In this document: positions 42,467-60,448 of the stretch, one piece after another
Numbering within the stretch: the first letter of the stretch is position 1
Layout of the letters: each line of letters begins with the position of its first letter
Assembly (NCBI GenBank): GCA_029256105.1
Contig: JAQSYO010000003.1
Span: forward strand, 124,001 to 188,000
Reading direction: 5' to 3'
Length of the DNA: 64,000 nucleotides
DNA from: Herbinix sp.
GTDB taxonomy: Bacteria > Bacillota > Clostridia > Lachnospirales > Lachnospiraceae
Notes under the pieces: model-generated
Databases searched by the model: none
The model's input: only the letters and a program-made list of their open reading frames with translations
Told to the model about the DNA's origin: nothing
Translations under genes and position numbers: made by a program

Positions 42467-42495
42467 TTGATAAAAGCTTACAGCAAAGATATAAT
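42467..42495 (+). promoter_or_regulatory. Promoter of the RibD/RibBA-like operon
   Basis: TTGATA (42467-42472) and TATAAT (42490-42495) are 17 bp apart, a strong sigma-A promoter ending 74 nt before the first start codon. No FMN riboswitch sequence is seen in 42169-42568; the remaining sequence in this 400-bp gap is AT-rich with no gene. Confidence 0.75.
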
Positions 42496-42568
42496 AAATC
42501 TATCCGAGAAATTAGGTAAAGCATACATAGTATATCATTTTACAAAAACAAACAAAAAGGAGTATGCT

Positions 42569-43660
42569 ATGAACGAGTATTTTATGAAGAAAGCCATTGA
42601 GTTAGCTGCTAACGGAGCTGGATTTGTAAATCCTGATCCGCTTTCCGGTGCAGTAATCGTAAAAGAAAATAGAATAATCGGTGAAGGGTATTATAAATCT
42701 TATGGAGCAATACCTGCAGAAACTGAGGCTATATTTAGTGCCTCCGGCGATTTAGTAGGAGCAGAGTTGTACTTAACAATCGAACCGTTTCGTGCAGAGC
42801 AAGAGGAATATGAGTTTTGCAGGCTGCTAAAGGAGAAAGGTATAAAAAAGCTTTACATTGGAATGCTGGATCCTAACCCTAGTAAAAAGGGTAATTTAAT
42901 ATCGGAACTTGAGAAAATGGATATTAGTTATGAGTTAGGCCTCCTGAGAGATGAGTGTGAGGAATTGAATGAAATCTATGCTTATTATATTCAAAATAAA
43001 TTACCCTATGTTATTGTAAAATGGGCTATGACACTGGATGGAAAGCTAGCAACGAAAACGGGTGATTCAAAATGGATTAGTTCAGATGAAAGCTTAAAAT
43101 TCGTTCATCAATTAAGGCAAAGAGTTGGAGCAATCTTAGTAGGAGAAAATACAGTTAAAATAGATGATCCAAGGCTCACAACCAGATTAGATGGAGTAAC
43201 TATCTCAAATCCACTTAGAGTAATCATTTCAAAGTATGGCGATATTCCCTTAAATTCAAAAGTGCTTCAGGTGGATGACAATACAAAGACTCTGATTATT
43301 GCCTCAGAATTTATATCAAAGGATAAGGAAGATGCTCTTTTACAAACAGGAGTAGAAATTGCTAAGCTAAGAGAAACAAATAACCACATTGAATTCAAAG
43401 ATATAATGGCTTTATTAGGAAGTATGGAAATTGATTCATTATACATAGAAGGTGGAAGTTCGATACTAGCATCTGCATTTGAAAGTGGATGCATTCATAA
43501 GGTATACACTACGATTGCGCCTAAGATTATTGGAGGCAGTAATGCAGTTACTCCGGTTGGCGGTAATGGGATTGAATTAATGAGAAATGCAATTGTATTA
43601 AAAAGGGTTTCTCATGAGATTGTTGGACCGGATGTTATTGTAAAGGGATACATTTATTAA
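42569..43660 (+). CDS. ribD: RibD-like protein with a degenerate deaminase domain
   Basis: A 363-residue homologue of riboflavin RibD. In the N-terminal deaminase domain, the zinc-binding His becomes Pro49 (IPAETE; Glu51 is kept), the first zinc Cys becomes Phe74 (IEPF), and the PPC position becomes Phe83 with a Cys only at 84. The domain should therefore not bind zinc or deaminate. The C-terminal reductase (about 145-363) looks intact, with KWAMTLDGKLAT, SKWISS, RVGAILVGENTV, DDPRLT and YIEGGSS. The ATG at 42569 follows AAAAGGAG. RibBA-like follows after 54 nt. It may reduce a pyrimidine that has not been deaminated, as archaeal and fungal reductases do, or serve another pathway. Confidence 0.85.
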   Translation: MNEYFMKKAIELAANGAGFVNPDPLSGAVIVKENRIIGEGYYKSYGAIPAETEAIFSASGDLVGAELYLTIEPFRAEQEEYEFCRLLKEKGIKKLYIGMLDPNPSKKGNLISELEKMDISYELGLLRDECEELNEIYAYYIQNKLPYVIVKWAMTLDGKLATKTGDSKWISSDESLKFVHQLRQRVGAILVGENTVKIDDPRLTTRLDGVTISNPLRVIISKYGDIPLNSKVLQVDDNTKTLIIASEFISKDKEDALLQTGVEIAKLRETNNHIEFKDIMALLGSMEIDSLYIEGGSSILASAFESGCIHKVYTTIAPKIIGGSNAVTPVGGNGIELMRNAIVLKRVSHEIVGPDVIVKGYIY

Positions 43661-43714
43661 AAATACGTTTGGAATAAAATAAAAATACTTACAAAGATTA
43701 TGGAGGAAAGAACG

Positions 43715-44902
43715 ATGCTTGATAAGATTGATAAAGTAATTAAAGATGTAATAAAAGGTAAAATAGTTATAATTGTAGATGACGAGCTTGCAGAAAGTGG
43801 AGGGGTCTTTTTCATGGCTTCTGAACTTGCTACTAAGGAAAACACAAATTATATGATGAAATATGGAACGGGATTTACTTACATTTCACTTCCAGAGGAA
43901 AAGACAGAAACGATTACGTTATCCCAAACAAATCATTTTAGTAAACAAAGTATCTCAGATACTTATGATTTATCGGTGGATTATATCAATGCCGGAACAG
44001 GGATAACTGCAGAAGATAGAACATTAACAATAAAAAAAATATTGGAAGAACAAATGAATTACAACAATTTTAAAACACCAGGTCATGTTTTTATCATGAA
44101 ATCAGCCAACGGTGGTGTATTAAAAAAAGCGGGGAATGCAGAGGCTGCATCGGATCTAGCTTCTATTTCCGGATACTATCCATCGGGAGTTATATCGGAA
44201 ATCTTAAATGAAGATGGCGAAGTAGCAAATGCGGAGCAGATTTTCCAGTTTGCCTTAAAAGAAAATATAAAGGTTGTTACGATAGAAACAATAATCTCAT
44301 ATCGCAGGGAAAAAGACTGTTATGTTTTTCAAGAGGCAGAAGCTAATCTTCCGACCGAGTATGGTGAGTTTCGTATGGTCGGATTTGTAAATAAATTAAA
44401 TGGAGAGCACCATGTTGCGTTAGTTCATGGGACAATCGATGTGAATGATGAAGTGTTGGTAAGAGTTCATTCGGAATGCCTCACCGGAGATGCGTTTCAT
44501 TCTTTAAAGTGCGATTGCGGTGAGCAATTGGCGGCGGCATTGATGAATATAGAAAAGGAAGGAAAAGGTGTTTTGCTTTATCTGAGGCAGGAAGGTCGTG
44601 GTATTGGACTAATTAATAAGATTAAAGCTTATAAGCTACAAGAGCAGGGGATGGATACGGAAGAAGCAAATATCGCTTTGGGTTTTCCCGCCGATATGAG
44701 AGATTATGGTATTGGTGCTCAGATATTAAGTGAGTTGAATATTAGAAAAATAAGGCTCATGACGAATAATCCCAAGAAAATCATCGGACTCAAAGGTCAC
44801 GGTATAGAAATAATTGAAAGAGTTCCTTTAATTATGGATACAAATATTTATAATAAAAGATACTTTGAAACTAAGAAAGAGAAGATGGGACATTTATATT
44901 AA
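43715..44902 (+). CDS. ribBA: RibBA-like protein: degenerate DHBP synthase fused to GTP cyclohydrolase II
   Basis: A 395-residue homologue of RibBA. The N-terminal dihydroxybutanone-phosphate synthase domain has lost key residues. The canonical DRENEGD is LAESGGV (25-31), with Arg to Ala26, Glu to Gly29 and Asp to Val31, and the metal-binding His of AGHTEA is Asn141. The GTP cyclohydrolase II domain (about 205-395) is well kept: HSECLTGD with Cys255, KCDCG with Cys266 and Cys268 for zinc, [12 protein letters not shown], and the TNNPKKI GTP-site segment. So it should open GTP but not make the four-carbon precursor of riboflavin. The ATG at 43715 follows GGAGGAAAG. Confidence 0.87.
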
Positions 44903-44951
44903 ATATAATTAGATAATAGATGGAATGTTAAAAGAATATGGGAGGTATTTT

Positions 44952-45779
44952 ATGGACAAGATCTATGTACAAATGTATTCCTTTGGAAGCTTTTCGCCAG
45001 CAGAAAATGAGAAGAATTTTGCTGATGCAGCAAAGCTAGGATTTAATGGGGTGGAGTTGTTTGGCCCTAATTTTGCTATGCAACCGCTACAGCTTGTAGA
45101 AACTCTTAAAAAAAATGGGCTGGAAGCGATTTCTCTGCACGCTTCAACAGACATGATTGAAGGAATGATACCATTTGCAGAAGCTTTGGAGATGCGCTTT
45201 ATGGGAATTGGAATGCATTATATTCCTGATGTTGCAGCAGCGATGCAATATGCTGAGAGGCTAAATCAAATCGGTGAAGTATGTGCAAAACATGGAATTA
45301 TGTTGACCTACCACAACCACACCCAGGAATTTTTAGCGTGTGAAGGGAAAACCATACTAGATATCATAGCAGATAATACAAATCCAGCTTTTGTAGGGAT
45401 TGAATTGGATGCGGGCTGGTGCGCGGCAGCAGGAGTGGATCCAATTGCATTTATAAATAAGCATGCGGGCAGAGTGAAATTAATTCATCTGAAAGAGAGT
45501 AAAGAAGTAATTGGAGTTCAACCACCTATGAATCCTGCAGATATGCAAATTGATGAAACCGGTAGACCAAAATTCACAGAGAAGCAACTCAAAGAAATGG
45601 AATTCATGAAAAGTATCAATTGTCCGGCAGGGGAAGGAATTGTAGATTGGACTAAGCTAAAAGAAGCTGCGGATGCACAGGGTTGCGAGGCATATATCGT
45701 AGAACGTGAACTTACTTATGCAAATGAGAGATATGACTGCTTGGAAACAGATATTGAATATTATAAAAATAATTTGTAA
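44952..45779 (+). CDS. Sugar phosphate isomerase/epimerase-type TIM-barrel protein
   Basis: A 275-residue protein of the xylose-isomerase-like TIM-barrel superfamily (AP endonuclease 2 / IolE-like). Metal-binding positions are suggested by LTYHNHTQEF, GIELDAGW, KLIHLKE and YIVERE, where Glu, Asp and His are conserved in the family. It starts 49 nt after the RibBA-like gene behind GGGAGGT and is followed by a strong terminator, so it is the third gene of that operon. The substrate is unknown: inosose dehydratases, epimerases and hydroxypyruvate isomerases share this fold. Its link to a pyrimidine pathway, for example processing a ribityl or ribosyl side chain, is speculative. Confidence 0.8.
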   Translation: MDKIYVQMYSFGSFSPAENEKNFADAAKLGFNGVELFGPNFAMQPLQLVETLKKNGLEAISLHASTDMIEGMIPFAEALEMRFMGIGMHYIPDVAAAMQYAERLNQIGEVCAKHGIMLTYHNHTQEFLACEGKTILDIIADNTNPAFVGIELDAGWCAAAGVDPIAFINKHAGRVKLIHLKESKEVIGVQPPMNPADMQIDETGRPKFTEKQLKEMEFMKSINCPAGEGIVDWTKLKEAADAQGCEAYIVERELTYANERYDCLETDIEYYKNNL

Positions 45780-45844
45780 AAAAATTAAAAATTAAATAGA
45801 ATTTTGAATGTCTAGAAGATAATTAAAATTCGAGTAGATCAATG

Positions 45845-45880
45845 AAGGAGCCAACAGTGAAACAATGTTGGCTCCTTTTT
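45845..45880 (+). terminator. Rho-independent terminator of the RibD/RibBA-like operon
   Basis: AAGGAGCCAACA (45845-45856) pairs perfectly with TGTTGGCTCCTT (45866-45877) around a 9-nt loop, followed by T. It defines the end of the three-gene transcript. Confidence 0.93.
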
Positions 45881-46370: not shown

Positions 46371-48494
46371 GTGAACAAAATTTTGGTAGGATGTAGAAAT
46401 TGGATTATGATTAGAAAATTAAAATCTAGCAAAAAAGAAGAAAAAAATACGAATTCAATCGTTTGGTATCGTAGGATAAGCCTTCGATTGATCATGTCAT
46501 TTATGATACCAATTGCTTTTGTTGTCATTATTGGCCTAGTTTCCTATGACAAGGCGTCTAAGGCAATTGTTGCTAATTATAAGCAATCAAGTCAACAAGC
46601 AATTGAAATGTCAAGCGAATATATCCGTTTTGGTATGGATGCAACACAAGCTACTGCGATTGAGTATATTATGGATAAAAATGTTCAGAGTTTTTTCTCT
46701 GGCTTTCTAGACCCAGATACCATGGGCTATTCGTCTGCCTTCACTGATATTAGAAGCTCCTTATTAACGAAACAGGCTTCTGATCAATTTCTGAGTAATA
46801 TACATATAATTTCATCAAAGGTTAATCTGACAGCCTCTACAATAAAAAATCCAAAAAACAATCTTTATCAAAAATATATTGAATCTGAGGTTGGTAAAAT
46901 ATCAGCAGAAAAACCTACAGCAAAATATTGGGTAGGTATCGATAAAAATTTTGACGAAATGATAGGATTACCAACATCGGATTATGCTATAAGATATGTG
47001 ACTGGTTTTAGTACAGGAAAGGCTTTAATGATGCTCGATATCAGTACTTCGGCCATTCAAGAAATCATAGATCGTTTGGATTTTGGAGCTGGAAGTATCA
47101 TTGGTTTTGTAACGAAGGATGGAAGAGAAATATACAATTCCTCGTATGAGCATAAAGCGGATCAATTATTCACAACCCAAGATTTTTATAAGGATTCTAA
47201 TGACTTGAAAGCTGGCAGCGGGAGTATGGACGTAAAATTTAACGGTAAAGATTATCTATATCTGTATTCAAAAGTTGGAGATACAGGTGTTATGATATGT
47301 TCATTAATTCCGGAAGCGACGCTGATTCAACAAGTGAGCAGTATTAAAAATGTTACATTATTACTTGTAATTTTATCTTGTATTATTGCTGTAGCGATCG
47401 GAGTCTATATTTCTACCGGTATTCAGAATACCATTCGATATATTGTAAACGAATTAGAAAAAGTATCGAAAGGAAATCTTACTATTAAGCTTAGAACAAA
47501 AAGAAAAGATGAGTTTTTATTATTAGCAGGTGGGGTGAATAATACAATTGAAAATATGAGGGGATTGATAGAGAAGGTATTGGATCAGAGCTCTTCTGTT
47601 ACGGCCTCTTCAACTCAAGTAAAAGATTCCTCTGAGGTGTTTTCCCAAGCTACGAAGAATATTATTGATTCAATTAAAGAAATTAAATCTGGAGTGGATC
47701 AACAGGCGGAAGAATCTGAAAACTGTCTCTTGCAGATGGATGACTTATCAGAGAAGATAGAGATAGTAACGGGTAAAACAAATGAGATTAGTGGAATAGC
47801 CAATAAAACAAAGCAAAGCATTGATCATGGGGTTGGATCAATGAAAACCTTGAATACAAAAGCACAGTTAACAACGCAGATTACAGCAAGGATTATTAAT
47901 AATATTGAAACATTACAGGAAAAATCAATAACGATTAATAAAATAGTAGGAACTATTAATGAAATAGCAGATCAAACAAATCTATTATCGTTAAATGCTT
48001 CCATTGAAGCAGCAAGGGCAGGTGAAGCTGGAAGAGGCTTTAGTGTAGTTGCGCTAGAAATCAGAAAACTCGCAGATCAATCTATGCAAGCAGTGCATGA
48101 AATAGAAAAGCTTATAAATGATATACAGCAGCAAACCAAGGAAGCAGTGTTAACGGCGAAAGAAGCAAACAGTGTAGTAAAAGAACAGGAAGAGGCGGTT
48201 AATAATACAGAGGATTCCTTTGAGGATATTAATAATCATGTTGAGAAATTAATCGATAATGTAGGATTGATATTTAGCAGTATCCAAGTAATAGCTACAG
48301 CTAGAGTCGGTACCTTAGCAGCAATTGAAAATATATCAGCAGTATCCCAACAGACTGCTGCTGCAACATTATCTGTTTCCGATATAACAAATCGACAATT
48401 GGACGCGATACATACGTTAAATGATTTATCACTAGAATTAGATAAAAATGCAAGTGAATTGGGGCAAGCTGTTGATAAATTCATAGTAGAGTAA
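46371..48494 (+). CDS. Methyl-accepting chemotaxis protein
   Basis: A 707-residue transmembrane chemoreceptor. A cytoplasmic N-terminus of about 37 residues is followed by transmembrane helix 1 (38-58), a Cache-like extracellular sensor of about 260 residues, transmembrane helix 2 (about 325-348), HAMP, and a long coiled-coil signalling domain. The hairpin tip [20 protein letters not shown] (around residues 534-553) binds CheA and CheW. It starts with GTG; the ribosome site is weak (GGGGGTAAC). The N-terminal 35 polar residues before helix 1 are unusually long. It stands alone, so the chemotaxis machinery must be elsewhere. The ligand is unknown. Confidence 0.93.
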
Positions 48495-56924: not shown

Positions 56925-56950
56925 ATCTATCCGATAAGATAGATTTTTTT
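56925..56950 (+). terminator. Weak terminator between importer and glycyl-radical genes
   Basis: ATCTATC (56925-56931) and GATAGAT (56938-56944) form a short AT-rich stem with a 6-nt loop, followed by seven T. The stem is weak, so the importer and the activase may be partly co-transcribed. Confidence 0.6.
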
Positions 56951-56967
56951 GTTATGGAGCAAATTAT

Positions 56968-57864
56968 ATGACAACAGGTAAAATTTTTAATATCCAGCGT
57001 TTTTCGGTACAGGATGGACCGGGTGTTCGCACGACTGTCTTTTTTAAAGGGTGCAATCTCAAGTGTAAATGGTGTCATAATCCGGAGTCAATCAGCTTTA
57101 AAAATCAAATCGAGTTATATAAGGAACGTTGTATTGGATGTGGCAAATGCTATGTTATTTGCCCTCAGGGTGCTCATTCTATGGAGGAACACGCCGGTCA
57201 TAGAATTGATAGAGATAAATGTATCGGGTGCTTTCAATGTGCCGAAAACTGTTTTGCAGAAGCCTTAGTAGGTGTTGGTTCCAGTGTTAGCGTCGAAAAG
57301 CTAATGGAGGCGATAGTAACGGATGAACTCTATTATAAAAACTCTGGTGGAGGTGTGACCTTCTCCGGTGGGGAGTGTATGTTACAAGCTGATTTTCTGA
57401 AGGAACTATTAATCGCTTGTAAGCAACGTAAGCTACATACTGCAATTGATACAGCAGGTGCAGTTCCTTGGACACAGTTTGAGAAAGTGCTGGACTGGAC
57501 AGATCTATACTTGTATGATCTGAAAGCGGTTGATTCTAAAGTTCATAAACAGCTGACGGGAGTGGATAACACATTAATTATTGAGAACCTAATCAAATTA
57601 ACGAGATTAGGTAAAGAAATTGTGATCCGAATTCCCTATATTATTGGATTAAATGATATGGAGTTAGAAGGCATGAGTAATCTGTTACAAGGACTTACGG
57701 TCGCAAGAGTAGAGGTTTTAGGCTACCATAAGCTGGGGGACAGTAAATATCACGCTCTTGAAATGGAAAATCAAACAATGGATTTAGCGATTCCCTCCGA
57801 GGAGAGAATTATAGCAGCGGTAGAGTATCTCAAGAAAAAAGGGATTAACGCTATAAAAAAATAG
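56968..57864 (+). CDS. Glycyl radical enzyme activase (radical SAM)
   Basis: A 298-residue S-adenosylmethionine radical enzyme that installs the glycyl radical on its partner. The SAM cluster motif is CNLKCKWC (Cys29, 33, 36), preceded by SVQDGPGVRTTVFFKGC. Two added ferredoxin-type clusters follow (Cys55, 58, 61, 65 and Cys85, 88, 91, 95). These are absent from pyruvate formate-lyase activase but present in activases of dehydratase- and lyase-type glycyl radical enzymes. The partner gene starts at 58280, after a tandem-repeat leader. GGAG precedes the ATG. The long gap to its partner is unusual. Confidence 0.92.
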   Translation: MTTGKIFNIQRFSVQDGPGVRTTVFFKGCNLKCKWCHNPESISFKNQIELYKERCIGCGKCYVICPQGAHSMEEHAGHRIDRDKCIGCFQCAENCFAEALVGVGSSVSVEKLMEAIVTDELYYKNSGGGVTFSGGECMLQADFLKELLIACKQRKLHTAIDTAGAVPWTQFEKVLDWTDLYLYDLKAVDSKVHKQLTGVDNTLIIENLIKLTRLGKEIVIRIPYIIGLNDMELEGMSNLLQGLTVARVEVLGYHKLGDSKYHALEMENQTMDLAIPSEERIIAAVEYLKKKGINAIKK

Positions 57865-57959
57865 ATAGGAACTTGATTCAAAAATAAGGAACAATTAAAA
57901 ATGGATAAAAAATATACAATGAAATAAATAAGAAGTATATAAATTAATAAGAAGATAAA

Positions 57960-58161
57960 GAAATTGAGAAGTAATAAGGAAATTAAGAAGTAATAAGGAA
58001 ATTGAGAAGTAATAAGGAAAAAGGAAGTAATAAGGAAATTAATAAGTAATAAGGAAAAAGGAAGTAATAAGGAAATAAGAAGTAATAAGGAAATAAGAAG
58101 TAATAAGGAAATAAGAAGTAATAAGGAAATAAGAAGTATTAAGGTAATAAGAAGTAATAAA
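57960..58161 (+). repeat. 18/19-bp tandem repeat in the leader of the glycyl radical enzyme gene
   Basis: Eleven copies of GAAATAAGAAGTAATAAG and variants (18 bp, or 19 bp as GAAATTGAGAAGTAATAAG) run without interruption. The plus strand of the tract has essentially no C. It fills half of the 415-bp gap between the activase and the enzyme (57865-58279), and no promoter is obvious there. The complementary strand has a long leucine-rich open frame, an artefact of the repeat. Confidence 0.93.
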
Positions 58162-58279
58162 GAAATATAAGTGAAAGAAATAAAAAATGATAAAGTATTT
58201 AGAAAAAGAGAATGAAATAATAATAAAATATTTAGTGAAATAAAGACAAAAAACAGTGTAATCGAATAGGAGGTATTCC

Positions 58280-60448
58280 GTGTTGAATACAGAAAAAGTA
58301 GTATTATCACCACTTTATCAAAAGAGGTTTCAGGGCCTCCATGATGATAAGTTACTGATTAACGATGCCAAAATTAATAAACTAGGAAGTATTGATATAG
58401 ACGACCATGGGTTTATTTTATTCCCCGACTTCAAATTCGAACCAAAGGTAAATCATAAAGACGGGTATGTATATGGAGCATTGGCTATCGGTGAGAATTT
58501 TAGGACTTTCTTAAATCAGATACCAAGTTATATTAATAAAAATAGTGCACTTGCAACCTGTTGGATTGGTCCTCTGCATAATTATATGAAGGTTGGAATA
58601 ATACCGGAAGATCGACTTCCCCAATTAGAAGAGATTTGGAAGGAATACAAAATACTTCAAAGTGGATTTGGTGGCATGAATCACCTTGGACCTGATATTA
58701 AGATAGGTTTAGAGTTGGGATGGGGAGGTTTACTGAAAAAGGTAAGGAACTTTAGGACTTTTAATCATCCTGCAGATACTAGTTTTTATGATGGTGAGGA
58801 GCAGCTGTTATTAGGGATACAAGAATGGATCGCAAACCATGCAAAACTGGCAAGAACGTTAGCAGAAGCAGAAGAGGAGGAGATCCTTCGAGAAAACTAT
58901 ATGGAAATAGCTTTGATGAATGAATGGCTTACTGAAAATCCACCTCGAACCCTACGAGAAGCATGTCAATTCATTGCTCATTTTCAAGCGGTAGACAGAA
59001 CCTACTTTGGGGGTGGTGCACTTAGCCAGCTCGATGAGGTATTAAGACCGTTTTATGAGAAGGATGTTAGTGAGGGAATCGTAACAGATGAGCAAGCAGC
59101 TTGGTATATTGCAAGCTTATTTTTTAATGATACACATTATTCTCAAATAGCTGGATTAACAACAGATGGAAGTGGTGATTTGACAAGTAGAATGTCCTTT
59201 CTTATTCTTGATGCAATGCATTATCTACACATACCAATTAATCTTGCTCTTCGTGTACATGATCAGGTGAATGAGGAGTTACTTCGCAGGAGCTTAGCAT
59301 ATACGTTGGAAGATGGCTCGGGTGTGGACTATTCCTTAAACATTGGCTGCGAGGAGGGTTATGCAAAGAATGGATTTCCAGTAGAGCTGGGTAGGTTGAG
59401 AGCAAAGGTTGGCTGTAATTGGACCGCATTACCTGGTACGGAATATCCGCTTCAAGATGTTACACGTTGTAATATGGCCTCTGCCCTCGTGCACGCAATA
59501 GAAGATTTGAAAGCTTCAAGAGAGAGAACACTTGAACTGTTGTGGGATAGATTTACCTACCATATTAGGATTATGCTTGATAGTATAAAGAAAGGTTATG
59601 ATCATCACTATGAGGTTGTATCAAGAAATACACCTGAGCTTGTATTAAATCTGTTTATGCATGGACCAATCGAACGAGGTTTGAATGCCGCTGAGGGTGG
59701 TGTGGATAATATGAGCTTTTGTATCGATGGGATTGCACTTGCAACCGTTGCTGATTCCTTTGCGGCGATTGAACAGCGACTTGTGCTTGAGCAAAGACTG
59801 ACCTGGGAGCAGTTATTTGATGCCTTAGGGAATAACTTTAAAGATGCGGAGTCAATTCGGTTAATGATGAAAAATGTGAAACGCTTTGGATCTCCAGATT
59901 CTCTTGCTGAAAAATGGGCACTTAAAATAAGAGATTATTTCGTTGATTATGCCAAAATATCGACTCCATTACATAACCTTAGAATAATTCCAGGTATGTT
60001 TTCTCATGGAGATGTATTCATGTATGGAAAAACAATTCCTGCTACACCAAATGGAAGATTTGATAAAGATCCGATCTCTCATTCCAATGAGCCAGATCCG
60101 GGTTTTGCAAGAGGGATTGACTCCTTCTCACCTTCCCTGAAGGCGACTGCAGTTGCAAAAGTACAGCCTGGATTAGGAAATTCTGCGCCTTTGCATCTTG
60201 ATATAGACAAGGATATGTTAGGGAGTGAGGATGGTATTGATGCGCTTATTGCGCTCATTCATACGCACAATCATATGGGTGGAACCTTAATTAATTTAAA
60301 CTGCCTAACAAAAAAAATGCTACTGGAAGCTCATGAGGACCCAAGTAAATATCCGGATTTGGTTGTTCGTGTGACAGGATATTCCGCTTTCTTTGCAACC
60401 TTATCGAAAACATATCGGCAGCAGATCGTGGATCGCTTTTTATCATGA
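58280..60448 (+). CDS. Glycyl radical enzyme of unknown substrate
   Basis: A 722-residue enzyme of the pyruvate formate-lyase superfamily, shorter than PFL (760). The glycyl radical site is RVTGYSAFF with Gly700, 23 residues from the C-terminus. The thiyl Cys is best placed at Cys379 in KVGCNWTALPG. Usual dehydratases and lyases have Cys-x-Glu there and PFL has Cys-Cys, so the catalytic environment differs. The NGRFDKDPISHSNEPDPG block and PLHNLRIIPG match the family fold. It starts with GTG behind AGGAGG. The activase is upstream. Neighbours are GH38, an importer, AraC and a GH106-like enzyme, so a sugar-derived substrate is possible, but the reaction cannot be named. Confidence 0.88.
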   Translation: MLNTEKVVLSPLYQKRFQGLHDDKLLINDAKINKLGSIDIDDHGFILFPDFKFEPKVNHKDGYVYGALAIGENFRTFLNQIPSYINKNSALATCWIGPLHNYMKVGIIPEDRLPQLEEIWKEYKILQSGFGGMNHLGPDIKIGLELGWGGLLKKVRNFRTFNHPADTSFYDGEEQLLLGIQEWIANHAKLARTLAEAEEEEILRENYMEIALMNEWLTENPPRTLREACQFIAHFQAVDRTYFGGGALSQLDEVLRPFYEKDVSEGIVTDEQAAWYIASLFFNDTHYSQIAGLTTDGSGDLTSRMSFLILDAMHYLHIPINLALRVHDQVNEELLRRSLAYTLEDGSGVDYSLNIGCEEGYAKNGFPVELGRLRAKVGCNWTALPGTEYPLQDVTRCNMASALVHAIEDLKASRERTLELLWDRFTYHIRIMLDSIKKGYDHHYEVVSRNTPELVLNLFMHGPIERGLNAAEGGVDNMSFCIDGIALATVADSFAAIEQRLVLEQRLTWEQLFDALGNNFKDAESIRLMMKNVKRFGSPDSLAEKWALKIRDYFVDYAKISTPLHNLRIIPGMFSHGDVFMYGKTIPATPNGRFDKDPISHSNEPDPGFARGIDSFSPSLKATAVAKVQPGLGNSAPLHLDIDKDMLGSEDGIDALIALIHTHNHMGGTLINLNCLTKKMLLEAHEDPSKYPDLVVRVTGYSAFFATLSKTYRQQIVDRFLS

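Follow-up and report, generated by a model that had tools for sequence, protein, structure and literature searches.

The window analysed here is a stretch of 64,000 nucleotides from Herbinix sp. on the 324-kb contig C31 of a draft genome of 4.8 Mb, which is 98.5% complete with 7.5% contamination. It carries two adjacent genes related to the bifunctional riboflavin enzymes RibD and RibBA. Both encoded proteins have lost their N-terminal catalytic site and keep the motifs of their C-terminal enzyme. We conclude that this pair is very probably a module of monofunctional GTP cyclohydrolase II (GCHII) and monofunctional reductase outside riboswitch control, produced by a reciprocal subfunctionalisation of the two bifunctional enzymes. 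The key observation comes from relatives that carry the same pair, in many of which the canonical riboflavin operon is missing the very domains that the pair has kept. The pair consists of the following features, where DHBPS stands for DHBP synthase.

42557-42562, plus strand: ribosome site AAGGAG of the RibD-like gene, read directly
42569-43660, plus strand: RibD-like protein of 363 amino acids, dead deaminase and intact reductase by alignment and profiles, start taken as the ATG at 42569
42569-43003, plus strand: deaminase domain of the RibD-like protein, zinc site lost, fold predicted to be kept (alignment, predicted model)
42713-42715, 42788-42790 and 42815-42817, plus strand: codons of Pro49, Phe74 and Phe83 at the zinc positions
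43004-43660, plus strand: C-terminal reductase part (RibD_C) of the RibD-like protein, from profile matches
43715-44902, plus strand: RibBA-like protein of 395 amino acids, dead DHBPS and intact GCHII by alignment and profiles
43715-44314, plus strand: DHBPS domain, active site lost (Ala26, Gly29, Val31, Asn141; alignment, TIGR00506)
44333-44902, plus strand: GCHII domain, motifs intact (profiles, alignment)

An earlier note on this DNA had read Pro49, Phe74 and Phe83 of the RibD-like protein as replacing the zinc ligands His, Cys and Cys of the deaminase. Alignment to the canonical RibD of the same draft genome and to other RibDs confirms this. The comparison covers the pair's orthologues in 14 draft genomes (the window's and 13 others, about eight lineages), 14 canonical reference copies (13 from pair-bearing genomes and one from genome G504) and 51 other RibDs. 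All 14 RibD-like proteins have lost the zinc site, as against none of the 14 canonical copies or the 51 other RibDs, so that the loss cannot be put down to chance. Not one of the three ligands is in place in any of the 14 proteins, and the replacements vary (K/E/Y, S/E/-, A/D/-, P/F/F and others). In six of them the alignment is gapped at the second Cys, where four proteins are nine loop residues short and two are four short. Glu51, which adjoins the lost His, is kept in the window's protein. Its AlphaFold model retains the deaminase fold with a mean pLDDT of 87 and matches Bacillus subtilis RibG over the full length with a TM score of about 0.78. The reductase half matches PF01872 (RibD_C) with 159-161 bits over profile positions 1-196 of 197. 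In the solved Acinetobacter RibD the zinc ligands are His54, Cys79 and Cys88 according to passages of PMC3668577, which also report a reductase that stays active in zinc-ligand mutants and say that RibD can be replaced by separate enzymes.

The RibBA-like protein shows the same kind of change. As the earlier note had read from the letters, Ala26 stands for Arg, Gly29 for Glu and Val31 for Asp (the R, E and D of the DRENEGD motif), and Asn141 stands for the His of GHTEA; all 14 canonical copies have R/E/D/H at these positions. Arg, Asp and His are lost in 12 of 12 RibBA-like proteins. Of the DHBPS site, the window's copy keeps Glu27 and Glu162. Its DHBPS domain passes the Pfam cut-off (174.7 against 26.4 bits) and falls below that of TIGR00506 (146 against 177 bits). 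The deaminase domain of the RibD-like protein also passes in Pfam (30.1 against 25 bits), and scores of dead domains above these cut-offs are as expected for a retained fold. The GCHII domain reaches 252 bits in Pfam and 281 bits against TIGR00505 (cut-off 206). Cys255, Cys266 and Cys268, which we take to bind zinc, and Tyr306 and Arg329, which we take to be catalytic, are conserved in 12 of 12 RibBA-like proteins when aligned to the GCHII chain 2bz0. Both C-terminal halves are thus full-length with strong profile matches, in agreement with the earlier reading of their motifs as intact.

The 13 further orthologues were found among 206 genomes of the family of Clostridium zeae, with 473-794 bits and a next-best match of 355 bits. 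The named carriers, C. zeae (G397), C. acidisoli (G398) and C. yunnanense, come from a pattern scan of a species collection, which found three orthologues and missed others possibly within the same collection. A search of the window's own family (397 genomes) returned the window's copy alone, the next match (297 bits, 42%) lying at the canonical level. The window's copy was also the only one in a class-wide search of 391 genomes (next 332 bits), a thin test given that the draw held none of the 13 known orthologues. Plasmid carriage was not found: 152 plasmid records match, all below 60%, and the best among the 15 matches listed has 38.5%.

The draft genome has a second riboflavin locus besides the pair, a point that the earlier note had left to a genome search, so that the sole-locus case by which the note would have been refuted does not arise. 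The draft encodes two RibBA and two full-length RibD proteins. The second set lies on contig C25 (locus L036, 4.5 kb) as ribD-ribE-ribBA-ribH, complete, with intact catalytic motifs and an upstream flavin mononucleotide (FMN) riboswitch of 122 bits. The tetranucleotide score of C25 is 0.90. For 84 chunks of the genome itself the median is 0.96 and the maximum 1.33, and chunks of Clostridium loci mostly score 1.39-2.04 (5-95%). A composition classifier gives C25 3% for Clostridium, versus 52-92% for 11 Clostridium operon stretches. The RibD of C25 is 73% identical to one from the family of C. zeae and at most 55% identical to 29 own-family RibDs, and it groups with Clostridiaceae in the tree (support 100/98). 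Being Clostridiaceae-like, this operon was possibly transferred too. Contamination was considered as its source and is disfavoured by tetranucleotides and classifier; horizontal transfer is likelier, which does not amount to proof.

The canonical operon is readable in 13 of the 14 pair-bearing genomes, the exception being the fragmentary assembly G580. Six of the 13 (C. zeae, C. acidisoli, G400, G508, G509 and G510) have a canonical RibD that consists of the deaminase only, 142-148 amino acids long depending on the starts taken, with ribE starting within 2-35 bases. Four of the 13 (G509, G510, G561 and G562) have a canonical RibBA of 202-204 amino acids that is DHBPS only. All four carry the RibBA-like gene, and a search at E 0.001 detected no further GCHII in them. 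Both truncations coincide in G509 and G510. Here the riboswitch operon is made up of deaminase-only RibD, DHBPS-only RibBA, ribE and ribH, and GCHII and the RibD-type reductase are found only in the pair. Twelve of the 14 genomes carry the RibBA-like gene, and the two without it, C. acidisoli and G400, both keep a full canonical RibBA with GCHII. In G400 the RibD-like protein is the sole RibD_C match above cut-off. The truncated canonical copies retain their own zinc or DHBPS residues. In total, 8 of the 13 readable genomes have a canonical operon without a domain that the pair keeps (reductase, GCHII or both) and with the rest of the riboflavin set. Because the truncated operons keep ribE, ribH and the deaminase and DHBPS motifs, the dead-domain pair most likely supplies the reductase, the GCHII or both for riboflavin where the canonical operon has lost them.

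Loss of the reductase appears rare in relatives without the pair. Among 146 genomes of the C. zeae family with a RibD match and no orthologue, at most three (G466, G569 and G577) clearly score as reductase-less and G444 is borderline, as judged from search scores and not by reading each gene. The resulting comparison of 6 of 12 genomes with the pair against 3 or 4 of 146 without it gives a Fisher probability of 4e-6 or 9e-6, with phylogeny ignored. Parsimony on a tree built from the parts that the operons have in common places three changes for the reductase (bootstrap range 3-4) and two for GCHII (2-2). The well-supported branches alone force two reductase losses and one GCHII loss, the backbone of this tree being unresolved.

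The two sets of genes differ in regulation. In the stretches fetched, an FMN riboswitch lies upstream of 13 of 13 canonical operons and of none of the 14 RibD-like genes. In C. acidisoli and G400 it sits between the RibD-like gene and the deaminase-only ribD. The usual clostridial layout is a single riboswitch-led ribD-E-BA-H operon, as described for C. difficile in passages of PMC11477304. Genomes that lack the canonical domains would thus have both the committed step and the reduction outside FMN control. We suggest the following division of labour from these patterns. The RibBA-like protein would act as GCHII and convert GTP to 2,5-diamino-6-ribosylamino-4(3H)-pyrimidinone 5'-phosphate. The deaminase of the riboswitch operon would act next, between the two steps of the pair, after which the RibD-like protein would reduce the ribosyl side chain. 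DHBPS, RibH (lumazine synthase) and RibE (riboflavin synthase), encoded in the FMN-riboswitch operon (here on C25), would finish the synthesis. Beyond that, the split may run where it does so as to free the committed GCHII step and the reductase from the FMN riboswitch and to leave the deaminase, DHBPS, RibE and RibH under it. This would be a rewiring of feedback, towards over-supply or export of flavin, by loss of domains and not by loss of the riboswitch. We offer it tentatively, as a reason for keeping the pair that is conceivable and still somewhat less than probable.

The RibD-like proteins form one clade (100/99), whose sister group is the canonical full-length RibDs of G504 and G505 (100/97). 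The GCHII domains of the RibBA-like proteins likewise form one clade (99/96). The simplest history starts from a ribD-ribBA pair of Clostridiaceae origin in which the deaminase and DHBPS sites disappeared a single time, ahead of the divergence of the 14 sampled copies. Loss of the complementary reductase, GCHII or both from the canonical operon would have followed in several lineages and fixed the division of labour. The window's RibD-like protein is nested within the Clostridiaceae copies, beside those of C. acidisoli and G400 (98/90). An AdhE gene lies 1.8 kb from the pair on the same 324-kb contig. In a set of 60 hand-picked genomes it is 73-81% identical to genes of 9 of 30 other own-family genomes and at most 68% identical to those of 29 genomes of the C. 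zeae family; the other 21 own-family genomes, including one of the same genus, give distant or partial matches. As the neighbouring AdhE is of the own family and the copies of the pair are Clostridiaceae, the pair probably arrived in this genome by horizontal transfer. The possibility that the pair comes from contamination was considered and rejected on the strength of this own-family AdhE.

Both genes are under purifying selection, since the ratio of nonsynonymous to synonymous change (dN/dS) of the pair is 0.02-0.29 in each domain over six close pairs. For the live domains it is 0.02-0.13. The dead domain has the higher value in 12 of 12 comparisons (six pairs, not all independent) and stays below 0.3 throughout. 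Within the RibD-like clade the ratio of reductase to deaminase distance is 0.42, so the reductase is far more conserved. Canonical RibD shows the reverse, with 1.6-2.0. In this ratio test a motif filter removed 20 of the 51 control RibDs, and the RibD tree and the zinc-site count used all 51.

Several observations weigh against the pair serving riboflavin synthesis as proposed. Five of the six deaminase-only genomes hold a weaker extra RibD_C match of 53-72 bits, one of them partial, compared with 156-165 bits for the RibD-like proteins. Such extra matches occur in 13 of 16 genomes searched, and they could in principle carry out the reduction. The canonical set is complete in 5 of the 13 genomes (the window's, C. 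yunnanense, G514, G478 and G579), and the pair is therefore not needed for riboflavin there. Contrary to expectation, retained canonical reductases are not measurably relaxed: their distance ratio is 1.67 in genomes with the pair, and two control sets give 1.97 and 1.60. G580 has the pair (contigs C204 and C405; loci L103 and L104), and no canonical operon was found in its fragmentary assembly. This is either an assembly gap, perhaps owing to the fragmentation, or a real exception. For the window's own genome, the composition of C25 fits the genome, yet the tetranucleotide measure also places two Clostridium operon stretches, from C. zeae (1.29) and C. yunnanense (1.22), within the genome's range. 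The measure is not decisive and the draft is contaminated, so membership of C25 is not proven. We regard the window's genome and the four others with a complete set as a half-way state, with a full operon beside the pair. In the window's genome the pair most likely adds GCHII and reductase capacity that is independent of the riboswitch.

In the chemistry proposed by the earlier note, GTP is opened to a diaminopyrimidine whose ribosyl chain is reduced with no deamination, and the resulting un-deaminated ribityl pyrimidine would be a separate product of unknown use. The missing domains are indeed exactly those that such a product does not need, and 5 of 13 genomes, the window's included, hold a full canonical operon besides the pair. 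Archaeal reductases use the un-deaminated compound, going by the name of the NCBIfam model TIGR01508, which the RibD-like protein matches with 139 bits; the canonical RibD of the same genome reaches 158 bits, and both are below the cut-off of 186. As a general function this product finds no support, because 8 of 13 canonical operons lack exactly a domain that the pair keeps, a reciprocal loss that assigns the pair to riboflavin synthesis in those genomes. In addition, no neighbouring gene able to use the compound is common to the loci in the stretches fetched, and two loci have the RibD-like gene without the RibBA-like gene, directly beside the riboflavin operon. We consider this proposal very unlikely, with a side product possible in the five genomes with the full set. 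What stands of it is that the pair is no product of random decay, given purifying selection and a state common to a clade of 14; a different product is not supported. A redundant duplicate whose domains erode neutrally before the gene disappears would fit the variable zinc positions and the gap at the second Cys. Against this, the frames are open in all genomes read (G580 being cut by contig ends), dN/dS of the live domains is low, and canonical copies appear to depend on the pair. Such decay is extremely improbable.

A further reading, compatible with reciprocal subfunctionalisation and not opposed to it, sees GCHII and reductase outside FMN control as a dosage or secretion module. It would produce excess flavin or intermediate, for example for export, and the canonical set would serve internal needs. 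The absence of an FMN riboswitch before all RibD-like genes speaks for it. There is precedent in Sinorhizobium, where RibBA is proposed to serve secreted flavins and another route the cell, according to PMC9478397. However, deaminase and DHBPS remain under the riboswitch, so that riboflavin flux would still be gated, and no transporter is common to the loci in the stretches fetched. We therefore hold this purpose to be doubtful, though worth considering.

Monofunctional relics of these enzymes are known. Similar to the RibBA-like protein, plant RIBA3 and Arabidopsis RIBA2 are bipartite proteins that keep GCHII, have lost DHBPS through changes of essential residues and exist beside a bifunctional isoform (PMC3509567, where the role of RIBA3 is left open). 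In contrast, the plant case is eukaryotic and plastidial, its partner isoform is not cut down to DHBPS, and there is no split by riboswitch. PyrR of plants carries a dead deaminase domain. Plant PyrD and PyrR have the deaminase and reductase of the RibD step on separate proteins, in a system unlike the present one in being that of plants (passages of PMC12840815). RibBX of Shewanella and Aeromonas, a RibBA in which one domain is dead, is accounted for by the gain of another GCHII gene and has the opposite polarity with live DHBPS and a dead GCHII-like domain; RibD is not involved in the passages of PMC10012899 that describe it. The bacterial bifunctional enzymes themselves, RibBA (4i14) and B. 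subtilis RibG (2b3z/4g3m), resemble the window's proteins by sequence in their architecture and in the catalytic motifs of the C-terminal half, and RibG also shares the predicted fold of the RibD-like protein. Unlike them, the window's proteins have lost both N-terminal catalytic sites. A complementary double split in bacteria outside riboswitch control was not found in the literature covered (titles and abstract openings, for one listing the first 20 of 94, subscription papers being outside the scope). To the extent of this literature, such a bacterial double split, seen here at several of its stages, is new. Two bifunctional enzymes of a single pathway have lost complementary domains, as a clean example from nature whose intermediate states survive in related species. 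The prediction is a riboflavin pathway in which FMN feedback does not reach the first committed step, a matter of relevance to flavin overproduction and to drugs that target the riboswitch.

The pattern is hidden by annotation. TIGR00326, the NCBIfam model for bifunctional RibD, accepts the RibD-like protein with 253 bits (cut-off 156) and also the deaminase-only copy of G509 (locus L111, 4171-4608) with 199.5 bits. As the deaminase-only copy passes, this model does not test bifunctionality, and automatic annotation will probably label both kinds of protein as bifunctional.

Further features surround the pair.

42467-42495, plus strand: promoter-like site TTGATA-17-TATAAT, 11/12 of the -35/-10 consensus
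about 44952-45779, plus strand: xylose-isomerase-like TIM-barrel protein, co-oriented and 3' of the pair, from profiles (IolE-like at 78 bits, cut-off 290)
45844-45878, plus strand: intrinsic terminator hairpin with T run, -20.9 kcal/mol, z -5.0, not listed by a consensus scan

Of the strong signals attributed to this locus, the terminator hairpin is indeed strong. The promoter site matches 11 of 12 positions, but the region is no richer in promoter-like sites than shuffled sequence (21 against 20.1). The TIM-barrel gene falls within the coordinates of the earlier note, and its protein was considered as a third pathway enzyme; no counterpart was found at the other loci, and it is not counted in the module.

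A methyl-accepting chemotaxis gene lies 3' of the pair in four genomes (window 46371-48494; L037 10457-12118; L098 4848-6422; L101 3961-5688). The genes near the pair in the window, C. zeae, G508 and G514 have only the signalling domain in common, at 27-32% identity, except for those of C. zeae and G508. Their proximity to the pair is probably chance. Elsewhere in the window there are several transporter and glycosidase-like genes. Positions 56938-60448 hold a radical-SAM activase-like gene with a CNLKCKWCHNPE motif, followed by a large open frame.

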